DNA of 64,000 bases from Pedinophyceae sp. YPF-701 (taxonomy: Eukaryota; Chlorophyta; Pedinophyceae): assembly GCA_916048055.1 (NCBI GenBank), contig CAJZHL010000029.1, positions 481,001 through 545,000 of the forward strand, in the 5' to 3' direction. Below the pieces are notes generated by a model that did no database searches, had not been told where the DNA came from, and saw only the letters and a list, made by a program, of their open reading frames with translations. The translations under genes and the position numbers were made by a program. Positions 11,812 to 15,613 of the stretch are shown in pieces. How positions within the stretch are numbered: position 1 is the first letter of the stretch; each line of letters starts with the position of its first letter.

Positions 11812-12837
11812 CGGCGCGGGCGGCGACGTGAGGGGCTCGGCGGTCAGCGGTGCCTGCTGCGGGGCTTTCTCACGGCCGGAACTTGCGAATGCGGGTCGTG
11901 CTGGGCGTGCAGCGCCGCGGAGCTGCGCGTGTGGCGGCCCAACTGATCATGCGGGGCACCCGCGCCTAGCAGCTGCGGGGGGCGGCCGGCAGGCGGTGCG
12001 CGTCGCTTTGCGCAGGTGCGATGTCGCGCGCAGCCCCCGCGTACCTGCGGGATGCCCGCACGCCCGAGCGCGACGGCCCTTGAGACCTGGGCTGCAGTAC
12101 TCCTGTAGATCAGGAGGGCAACCGCGGAGTGGCCCGCGCGGCTCCGTTCATGCCCCGTGGTCGCGACGCATATGATTCTTTGATGTGATCTCTGATCGTG
12201 CGTGCGCTGTGCGGCGTGGCAGCTTCCCGGCGACGCGGAGAAACCCGTCGCTAGCCTCGTTTCCGTGGCGCCCGCCCGCGTCCGCGCAGATTCGGCACCG
12301 CAAGGCACTGGAGTCCTCAAGCGCTTGGAGAACCCCAGCAGCAACGGCTCGTCGCGGGCCGCAGGCCGGGAGTTGGCGCGCCCGTCCACGCCTCTCACCA
12401 AACAGCAACTACGCGGAACAGGCGGACTTCGGGCCCGCCACGCGTGCCCGTGATGCGCAGTCGATGTGGAGGGCGCGAAGACGGCACGGGCCCTTCGATG
12501 CGGGGCGCCAGGCAGCGGCGGGCCCGGGGCGGGACGCGCCACACAACTCACGCCCCTGTGCTACTGACGCTGGCCCACCGCGGCGGCCCATAGGCGGCGA
12601 ACGGAGGCACGCCGCCCCACATGGTACCCGCAAGACTTCGAAGCGGAGGCAATCGCATTGGTTCGTCCGCATTCAGGGCGTGGCGAGGCACATTCCACCC
12701 CTGGCAACCGGCAGCTGCTCGCGGGAGCTTGCACCTCGCCCGGTCCCGCGCGAAATCAGTGCGCCTCGCGGCATCCTTGCTCGTGCGACGTTCGAGCGCG
12801 CGACTTCCCGGCGGCGGATCCGCGAGGCGGCGGCTGC
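11812..12837. other. Divergent upstream region, RWP-RK / COA4-like
   Basis: No supported gene. It lies between two genes transcribed away from each other, so it should hold both promoters. I see no clear motif. Confidence 0.5.
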
Positions 12838-13059
12838 ATGGCGCACCACGGCACGTCTGCGGCGGACATCGACCCGGAGACCTCGCTCGCCCCCGCGTGT
12901 CGCGCACCGTACCTCAAGCTCGAGGACTGCCTCGCCGACAACGACCGCGACTGGCGACGCTGCCAGGAAGCCGTCAAGGCGCTCCGGGAGTGCACGAGCG
13001 CCCGTGGTGGCGCTGCACCTGGCCGTGCCGCGCCGGTCGCGCCTGGCAAGCAGCAGTGA
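12838..13059 (+). CDS. Twin CX9C mitochondrial protein, COA4-like
   Basis: A 73-residue protein with two exact C-x9-C motifs (CRAPYLKLEDC and CQEAVKALREC) separated by a short acidic loop with DWRRCQ. Twin CX9C proteins are imported into the mitochondrial intermembrane space by Mia40 and mostly assist respiratory-complex assembly. The spacing and the C-x6-DWRxC segment resemble COA4/CHCHD8, a cytochrome c oxidase assembly factor; another twin-CX9C subfamily is possible. Single exon, started at the only nearby Met (preceded by GGCGGCTGC). The stop is only 65 bp before the start of the LYR gene on the same strand. Confidence 0.75.
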   Translation: MAHHGTSAADIDPETSLAPACRAPYLKLEDCLADNDRDWRRCQEAVKALRECTSARGGAAPGRAAPVAPGKQQ

Positions 13060-13124: not shown

Positions 13125-13580
13125 ATGATCGCGGCGCGTCGCCTGACGGGAACCCTACCGGGGTGTGCGGAGCGCGCGTTCGGCAGCAACGTGCCCGCGG
13201 CTGCCGCGGACCCCTTCTCGCTGGACGTCCTGTCTCTGTACAGATCCATCATGCGCTCTGCGAGGTGGGTCCCGCCCCGACGCAGCGCCCGCACGCCGCT
13301 GACTGTGACGCAGTTGGCGGCATCGCTCACTGCGCGACGGCGCGGGGCGTGGGCGCGCAGGAACTTCCCGAGCAGCAACCGGGCGGGTCTCATCGAGTCG
13401 ATACGGCAGGACTTCCGCGACGGGGCCAAGGTGACGGACAGGGAGGAGGTTGCCAAGCGGCGCCAGTCGGCCGTGACGGGGCTCCGGCAGCTGCAGGCGT
13501 TCTCCGAGGCGGCCAGTGCCAGAGGCGGTGAGGGCTCGGTGTTCCTGGGCGGCAACGCCAACGACAGCTGGTGGCAGTGA
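13125..13580 (+). CDS. LYR-motif (Complex1_LYR) protein
   Basis: A 119-residue protein of two exons (13125-13264, 13361-13580). The 96-bp intron is in-frame, but splicing it (GTGGGT...GCGCAG) restores the family signature VLSLYRSIMRSARNFPSSNR followed by IESIRQDFRDGAKVTDREEV. LYR proteins are small mitochondrial matrix adaptors for Fe-S cluster transfer and complex I/II assembly, usually bound to acyl carrier protein. The exact paralog cannot be set; the NFPSSNR and VTDxE features fit the general LYRM group. It sits 65 bp after the COA4-like gene, and both products are probably mitochondrial. Confidence 0.8.
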   Translation: MIAARRLTGTLPGCAERAFGSNVPAAAADPFSLDVLSLYRSIMRSARWVPPRRSARTPLTVTQLAASLTARRRGAWARRNFPSSNRAGLIESIRQDFRDGAKVTDREEVAKRRQSAVTGLRQLQAFSEAASARGGEGSVFLGGNANDSWWQ

Positions 13581-13900: not shown

Positions 13901-14657
13901 TCACTGCACGACGCAGCAGCTCCGCGACCGGCTTCCGTCGCCGCTTCCGTCGTCCTTGCCCCCCTGCTTGCCCGCCTTGCCGTCTTCGCGCACTACTGCA
14001 TGCAACGTGACCACCGGCACGTCCCCAGGGTCCCCGCCAGAAAGCATCTGCCACGTCGGCTCGAGGCTGCCCGACGGCTCCATCGTTCGACCTGCACACT
14101 CGCGGGCGGCGCGGGCGTGGCGCCGGCATGAGCAGGGCTCGTGCGATGCGCGTGCCGCGGCGAGCACCGGCGGCGCTGTTCAAGGCCACTTCGGGGGGCG
14201 CGTGGCTCGCACCGTTCAGAATCAGCCGCAAGCACGCGGCGTTGGCGGGGGCGTGCGCGGCCAGCGGGCCCTCTGTGGGCCAGTGGCTGATGGCCAGCTG
14301 CCGCGCTGCAGCGCCCGTGAGCGTCGCTGGCTGCTCGCCGAGGTCGATGTCCCCATCGGTGTGCCTGCGGACGGGCGCGGACGCAATGGTCGCGCTCCAT
14401 CATCGAACGGCGACTGTGCGAGCACTGGCTCGACTCCAGCAGCTGCTGATACGCGCACACTGTGTCAAGTGGGGCCGCATGGCTGCAGCGCGAGACGCCG
14501 GACGGATCCAGGCAAAGGCAGGGCACTGCCGGATGCGGCCAGCAGGGCTGCGAGCAGGTGAGTCTCGTCCCGCCCTGCGCGAGCCCTCCGGTGACAGCAG
14601 AACCCTGCTCGCGCACCTCAGCTTCAGCTTCACCGTGGCGGCAGAGAACTTGGGCAT
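13901..14657 (-). CDS. Membrane-anchored ubiquitin-fold protein (UBL3/MUB-like)
   Basis: A 146-residue protein rebuilt from four small exons: 14657-14617, 14482-14426, 14364-14213, 14091-13901. Introns are 134, 61 and 121 bp, with GT-AG ends and matching phases. The middle resembles the UBL3/MUB beta-grasp fold: an ARQLAISHWP helix like the A.HVYDNWP segment of UBL3, then ACLRLILNGRTM like NILRLIYQGRFL, then VPVVTLHAVVRE like the TTVMHLVARE strand. It ends in a Gly/Ser/Lys linker and CCVVQ, a prenylation CaaX box whose final Gln favours farnesylation. Plant MUBs dock E2 enzymes at the plasma membrane. The ATG is only 6 nt after the stop of the KxDL-like gene and in the same frame. Confidence 0.78.
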
Positions 14658-14663
14658 GCTCGT

Positions 14664-15613
14664 CTAGTCTTCTGGCTCTCGCTCGTCCGGGAACAGCTCC
14701 TCCGCTTCCGCGATCAAGTCGGGGTACCTGCGTGGGTGGCGACGCACGGACGCGCACACATGGGCGGCACTGGCCAGCGCAGTCCGTGCTGCCGGCAACA
14801 GGGCGCCGAGACGCTGTGTACACGACGCAACTACGTGATACGAAACGTCAGCCTGCTGCGGTTGGGTGCGGGTCGCTGTCGTTCCGCGGCGCGGGGGCAC
14901 AGGACGTGAGAGCATAGCAACGGCGCTGGGGCCGCACAGCACGCGGACAGCGGGAGGAGGCCTGATCGGCCGCAAGCTCGAGACCATGGATCTGCCCCGT
15001 GGTATCGGACAGTGGGTTGCGGCTGCTGGCGGCACCCAGCGCTCAGCGCGCATTAGTTGGCACGCTCGCACACGGGCCGTGATGCGTGGTGCGGTGTCAG
15101 GGACGCCTCACGCGGGGTGCGCCGCTCGGCGTCGGCCTCGGTGAGCTTAGCACTCACCTCGTGGTCAGCTTCTTCCTGATGGAAACGAGCGCCGCGAACA
15201 CGGCGTAGAGGTCGGTGCTGATGCCCTTGAGGAGCTGCGCTTTGTGCTTCAGGCTCTCGAGCAGATCTCGATGCTCATCAGACGTCTTGTTCAAGCCTTC
15301 GAGAGCCTGCAACGAGCGTGGTCCTCGGCTCCGTCGCGGCGCACCGCTGGGCGCCCTCGAGCCAGGTCGCAGGGGAAACTAGGCCGTTGCCGCCCCGCGC
15401 AGAACACGCACGCGCTCCCGCCCGCGGCGCGACCGGCCGCCTGCTCGGACGAGGGCCGGCGGGAACCGCCCGCGACTGTCTCACCTGGATGACCGCGGCG
15501 AGCTCCTTGAGCGCCTCGGCCTGTGAAGCCCCTAGGTCGCCTGGGCCCCGAGTGACGCCGCGTTCGGACGGCAGACCTCCACGACTTGAGCCCGGGCCTT
15601 CGCCCTCTTCCAT
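14664..15613 (-). CDS. KxDL-like small coiled-coil protein
   Basis: A 113-residue protein of three exons: 15613-15485, 15306-15158, 14727-14664 (introns 178 and 430 bp, GTGAGA and GTGAGT donors). Two short helices (AEALKELAAVIQ, then DEHRDLLESLKHKAQLLKG) precede STDLYAVFAALVSIRKKL and TTRYPDL, which align by pattern with the KxDL domain (K-x-D-L followed by I-R-x-L-x-x-K-L and QYP/QHP). The first Lys of the motif is not conserved. It ends in an acidic tail. KXD1 is a BORC/BLOC-1 family subunit that positions lysosomes or endosomes, so a role in organelle traffic is possible. The family call is moderate; the gene structure is firmer. Confidence 0.6.

Follow-up and report, generated by a model that had tools for sequence, protein, structure and literature searches.

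Two short, unrelated protein-coding ORFs of the nuclear genome meet inside one exon on the minus strand of the window, the 64,000-nt stretch of Pedinophyceae sp. YPF-701 contig CAJZHL010000029.1 analyzed here. The host strain is placed among the core chlorophytes by NCBI and received the name Akinorimonas japonica in a 2025 description (PMC12574857). The upstream ORF1 (15613-14664) spans three exons and 342 nt and encodes a KxDL-like protein of 113 aa, while the downstream ORF2 (14657-13901), also in three exons, comprises 384 nt and encodes a UBL3/MUB-like protein of 127 aa. Both models were rebuilt from the minus strand and contain the following features:

15613-15485, minus strand: ORF1 exon 1, with the start codon at 15613-15611
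15306-15158, minus strand: ORF1 exon 2, the core of the KxDL-like helix, containing the sole internal ATG of ORF1
15157-14728, minus strand: ORF1 intron 2, 430 nt, the roomiest site for a separate ORF2 promoter
14727-14664, minus strand: the part of exon 3 that belongs to ORF1, ending with the stop
14727-14617, minus strand: shared exon, 111 nt, holding the ORF1 end with its TAG, the 6-nt gap, and the ORF2 start
14666-14664, minus strand: ORF1 stop codon TAG
14663-14658, minus strand: inter-ORF spacer ACGAGC, 6 nt
14657-14617, minus strand: ORF2 exon 1, with the start codon at 14657-14655
14364-14213, minus strand: ORF2 exon 2, ubiquitin-like domain
14091-13901, minus strand: ORF2 exon 3, ending with CVVQ and the stop

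At 430 nt, ORF1 intron 2 exceeds the other three introns, which measure 178, 252, and 121 nt. The ORF1 stop and the ORF2 start lie in one frame, and the shared exon is symmetric, with phase 2 at both flanking junctions, so that its skipping keeps the frame. An earlier note on this DNA had given the positions of the TAG, the spacer, and the ATG at 14657, together with their common frame, and the rebuilt models bear these out to the base. All four introns have GT…AG borders, and the UBL3-like model is identical to a deposited protein. Common frame and common phase together have a chance of about 1 in 9. The exact 6-nt gap is by itself weak evidence; an ATG shortly after a stop is presumably not rare. 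Two coding regions, each with its own family match, are nevertheless unlikely to meet inside one exon by chance.

ORF2 is identical residue for residue, over its full length and with the same start, to a 127-aa protein deposited for Pedinophyceae sp. YPF-701, so the annotators, too, arrived at this splicing and this start. At an E value of up to 0.001, a search with the ORF2 sequence returned only this deposited copy of itself. ORF2 shares with the UBL3/MUB family the Rad60-SLD_2 domain (Pfam PF13881, 35.8 bits against a cut-off of 23) and the C-terminal CVVQ, which we take to be a CaaX box, a prenylation signal. It is distant from its closest solved chain, 1se9_A (E 0.018), and a single-sequence structure model (mean pLDDT 42.9) is too poor to judge the ubiquitin fold. 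In animals, UBL3 is reported to be a membrane-anchored, prenylated modifier in multivesicular bodies and vesicle sorting. A second ubiquitin-like ORF occurs on the same contig (L005, G000:C29:339680-342853, around 1501-1674), with a Rad60-SLD_2 score of 21.0 bits, under the cut-off of 23.

In animals, KXD1 is a subunit of BORC with a role in positioning lysosomes. The best Pfam match of ORF1 is to the KXD1/KxDL family (PF10241) at 26.4 bits, just below the gathering cut-off of 27.2, and ORF1 is therefore named KxDL-like only; a weak Med9 match was found besides. The KxDL score is 13.7 bits for exon 2 alone, 20.3 for exons 2 and 3, 19.1 for exons 1 and 2, and reaches its full value with all three. 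The K-x-D-L tetrapeptide is altered to S73-T74-D75-L76, with serine replacing the lysine, while 9tqb_E, a solved KxDL-domain protein, has KTDL at the equivalent place. ORF1 shares the TDL…YP pattern with 9tqb_E but differs from the family in S73 and in its sub-cut-off score. The alignment with 9tqb_E (E 0.099) spans the exon 2-3 join, and three unrelated chains outrank 9tqb_E in the same structure-chain search through repeated weak matches.

ORF1 is very probably a real gene, and it is highly doubtful that its exons are merely 5′ leader or noise ahead of UBL3. Such a reading could draw on the Pfam score and on the poor codon-use support of exon 1, as well as on the low specificity of the KxDL profile, which also scores coiled coils and gives 30.0 bits on a 208-aa fragment of an unrelated long coiled coil in the same genome. 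A search of the deposited proteins also failed to find ORF1, both among entries about 62-198 aa long (38 candidates, none reaching E 0.001) and in the longer range set by a 243-aa query (0 of 209), a result that could also mean that ORF1 is no gene. Against it stand (i) the growth of the KxDL score with every exon join, (ii) the five shuffled versions of ORF1, all of them without a Pfam match up to E 1, (iii) the exon 2-3 join, which recreates the TDL…YP pattern, and (iv) the in-frame codon score of -3.5, far above the -47.4 or lower of the other five frames, a gap that arises partly by construction because stops are penalized.

The coiled coil mentioned above (L003, G000:C3:2064078-2067245, 1396-2274) yielded its fragment above the KxDL cut-off among 102 families matched at E up to 1. 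Further KxDL copies were sought in the genome, and the two matches (L003 and L004) were rejected, both lying inside long coiled coils. Neither ORF1 nor ORF2 of the window was recovered by the genome-wide family searches, presumably because introns split them.

The start contexts of the two ORFs differ at both positions considered. ORF1 begins in the context ACGTATATGG, with T at -3 and G at +4, and ORF2 in the context ACGAGCATGC, with A at -3 and C at +4. The -3 bases fit a weak-first, strong-second pattern, whereas the +4 bases run opposite. The species reference consists of the seven recognizable H3-type starts out of 21 histone matches, the other 14 being omitted; two of the seven (L019 and L020) lie close together and have identical contexts. 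These starts carry a purine at -3 in six of seven cases and G at +4 in all seven.

Upstream of ORF1, no ATG begins within 241 nt of genomic sequence, a stretch that need not coincide with the true leader. The internal ATG in ORF1 exon 2 is out of frame, opens nine codons, and ends well before ORF2. It is the only ATG in the 348 nt that follow the ORF1 start, compared with 3.7 expected by base composition and 1.3 expected from codon shuffles of ORF1 (P 0.59); the scarcity of ATGs is thus no greater than the codon make-up of ORF1 gives. Given this null result and the opposite +4 bases, the locus alone permits leaky scanning without proving it.

Other gene pairs of the same genome have a similar architecture. 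A CDC26 ORF of 68 aa, spliced by hand (PF10471, 29.7 bits against a cut-off of 24.5), lies upstream of a TTM3-like CYTH gene (L008, G000:C11:63761-67018; 904-957, 1231-1335, and from 1443). The TTM3 ATG, at 1459, falls inside the last CDC26 exon in a different frame, giving an overlap of 32 nt; the interval from one start to the other is free of ATGs. The CDC26 start context is weak (CATATGT) and that of TTM3 strong (GCCATGG); an out-of-frame ATG 17 nt before the CDC26 start is a blemish. This design resembles that of KxDL-UBL3, with an overlap in place of the 6-nt gap. CDC26-TTM3 is a conserved bicistronic locus known in land plants and Chlamydomonas (PMC11291117). Its pairing is deeply conserved according to the same source, whereas the KxDL-UBL3 pairing is known here from one genome.

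A second candidate bicistron within the window, CHCH-LYR, adjoins KxDL-UBL3 and converges with it:

12838-13059, plus strand: twin-CX9C (CHCH) ORF, CHCH score 26.4 bits, under the cut-off of 27.2
13125-13264 and 13361-13580, plus strand: LYR-family ORF, 46.7 bits

Its two ORFs are separated by a 65-nt gap, with no ATG between their starts, and an upstream ATG is found at 12621, 217 nt ahead of the CHCH ORF. Pooled over the three pairs, one ATG lies between the starts compared with 7.2 expected (Poisson P 0.006), a statistic that is illustrative because the pairs were knowingly picked after the fact. Within the second ORFs of the three pairs, TTM3 being counted in part, seven ATGs occur against 10.3 expected. 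At -3, the first ORFs have T, C, and T (purine in 0 of 3) and the second ORFs A, G, and A (purine in 3 of 3).

Bicistronic nuclear loci have been documented in two green algae, Chlamydomonas reinhardtii and Auxenochlorella protothecoides (PMC11291117), and the earlier note was right to liken the present locus to green-algal polycistrons. In the published loci, the inter-ORF medians are 183 and 40 nt, with some ORFs overlapping, while the median distances between colinear monocistronic genes of the two algae are 3,415 and 2,518 nt (PMC11291117). The KxDL-like and UBL3-like ORFs are colinear on the same strand, only 6 nt apart in a single exon. They resemble the published bicistrons in their single orientation, short ORF1, and short gap, here at the level of DNA. 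The purine at -3, missing at ORF1 and present at ORF2, would also fit but is offset by the bases at +4, and the ATGs before ORF2 are few by base composition though not by codon shuffle. With 342 nt, ORF1 is intermediate between the two medians reported for first ORFs (357 and 291 nt); ORF2, in contrast, is only slightly longer than ORF1 and far short of those reported for second ORFs, 1113 and 1185 nt (PMC11291117). In A. protothecoides, the weaker the ORF1 start context was, the higher was the ORF2 output, and when an ATG was reintroduced into the first ORF of a synthetic reporter, the second ORF fell to background, from which the authors conclude that leaky scanning operates (PMC11291117).

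With two ORFs in one exon, six bases apart, a single mRNA is probable. The gene models, the shared exon, the spacing, the AUG contexts, and the colinear, overlapping CDC26-TTM3 pair are features of the DNA itself. It is an inference that both ORFs share one transcript, that leaky scanning operates, that prenylation takes place, and that the two proteins are co-expressed to serve membrane traffic. It is likely that ORF1 and ORF2 are the cistrons of one dicistronic nuclear mRNA and that ORF2 is reached by leaky scanning. A promoter upstream of 15613 would give rise to a single capped, spliced, and polyadenylated nuclear mRNA carrying both ORFs. Part of the scanning ribosomes would start at the ORF1 AUG, with its T at -3, and produce the KxDL-like protein. 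Others would bypass this AUG and the one internal AUG and start at the ORF2 AUG, with its A at -3, and the ubiquitin-like product may then be prenylated. The dicistronic mRNA proposed by the earlier note thus stands as the best reading, while the translation routes offered there, reinitiation and readthrough, left out leaky scanning, which fits the sequence better than either. The probabilities given here to this reading and to its rivals are not strictly exclusive because leaky scanning and reinitiation could act together.

The same DNA could instead hold two overlapping monocistronic genes, with an ORF2 promoter in ORF1 intron 2 or exon 3 and an ORF1 mRNA that ends inside the ORF2 gene. The earlier note had held that a promoter cannot fit between the ORFs, which is too strong, as ORF1 intron 2 could hold one; this intron is the longest of the four, and only ORF2 was found among the deposited proteins within the length ranges searched. 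We still consider such an arrangement unlikely. The 3′ end of ORF1 would have to fall in ORF2 introns or exons, and transcription of ORF2 from any point upstream of 14761 would leave its leader with one or more intron ATGs. The poly(A) signal TGTAA does not occur on the minus strand in 12.0-17.5 kb, although its absence is a weak test because TGTAA is not enriched in the window as a whole (12 observed, 10.0 expected). Distinctly unlikely is a dicistronic mRNA on which ORF2 is translated by termination and reinitiation after ORF1, aided by the 6-nt gap and possibly beside leaky scanning. Gaps of a few bases are accompanied by higher reinitiation rates (PMC11291117), and yeast has been made to reinitiate by an 80S route; ORF1, however, is long for reinitiation at 113 codons. 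The A. protothecoides data also run opposite to the prediction, a stronger ORF1 context having lowered ORF2 output (PMC11291117), and the CDC26-TTM3 ORFs of this same genome overlap, so that the second start precedes the first stop.

A KxDL-UBL3 fusion protein could arise by readthrough of the TAG, by skipping of the shared exon, or through splicing to the AG at 14660-14659. The ORF1 stop is in frame with the ORF2 start, skipping of the phase-2/phase-2 exon keeps that frame, and the AG would join exon 2 to the complete ORF2 in frame. The deposited ORF2 protein, however, begins at its own ATG, the putative acceptor reads GAG with no pyrimidine tract in the preceding 12 nt, and exon skipping would drop the first 13 residues of ORF2. 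We know of no evidence that ACG after a stop is a strong readthrough motif, and nothing in the analysis shows the readthrough fusion that the earlier note had listed among its options; a fusion is extremely improbable. Very improbable, too, is that the shared exon acts as a switch, with normal splicing giving two proteins and readthrough or use of the AG at 14660-14659 giving a prenyl-anchored KxDL-UBL3 fusion. If such a switch existed, the fusion would tie a lysosome/vesicle-positioning subunit to membranes.

The observation is real, and the locus probably represents a dicistronic gene, a type for which green algae already offer examples although it is rare in eukaryotes. The present locus would extend green-algal bicistronic genes to the Pedinophyceae, a class missing from the main text of PMC11291117, the one searched on this subject, in which the terms KxDL, UBL3, ubiquitin, and pedino are absent. 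The overlapping CDC26-TTM3 pair is added for the same class. Among the matches listed for KxDL/bicistronic, KXD1/UBL3, and pedinophytes/polycistronic, no title or abstract opening reports a KxDL-UBL3 pair, and no earlier account of bicistronic genes from the Pedinophyceae emerged there. ORF1 is proposed as a gene that annotation may have overlooked because pipelines tend to retain one ORF per transcript, as we understand them. Should this architecture turn out to be frequent in the compact genome, its protein set could lack first ORFs on a wide scale. Judged from sequence, co-expression of two endomembrane proteins is plausible, and a pair whose members both have links to membrane traffic would point to co-regulation.

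Several further pairs and families were looked for in the same genome. For TOM22-SDHAF3, the one LYR match was rejected, as it looks by eye like a different LYR protein. For REX1S-REX1B, REX1B was found, and inspection by eye revealed no REX1S upstream. Four BLOC1S2 matches below the cut-off were discarded as coiled-coil-like by eye. BLOC1S1 gave two matches below the cut-off, one of them coiled-coil-like and the other rising above the threshold only once its exons had been joined by eye. The latter, a GCN5L1/BLOC1S1-like gene (L011, 973-1737; G000:C4:136149-136337), then scores 30.9 bits, and a GCN5L1-like gene is thus probably present in the genome. GCN5L1 is a subunit common to BLOC-1 and BORC.
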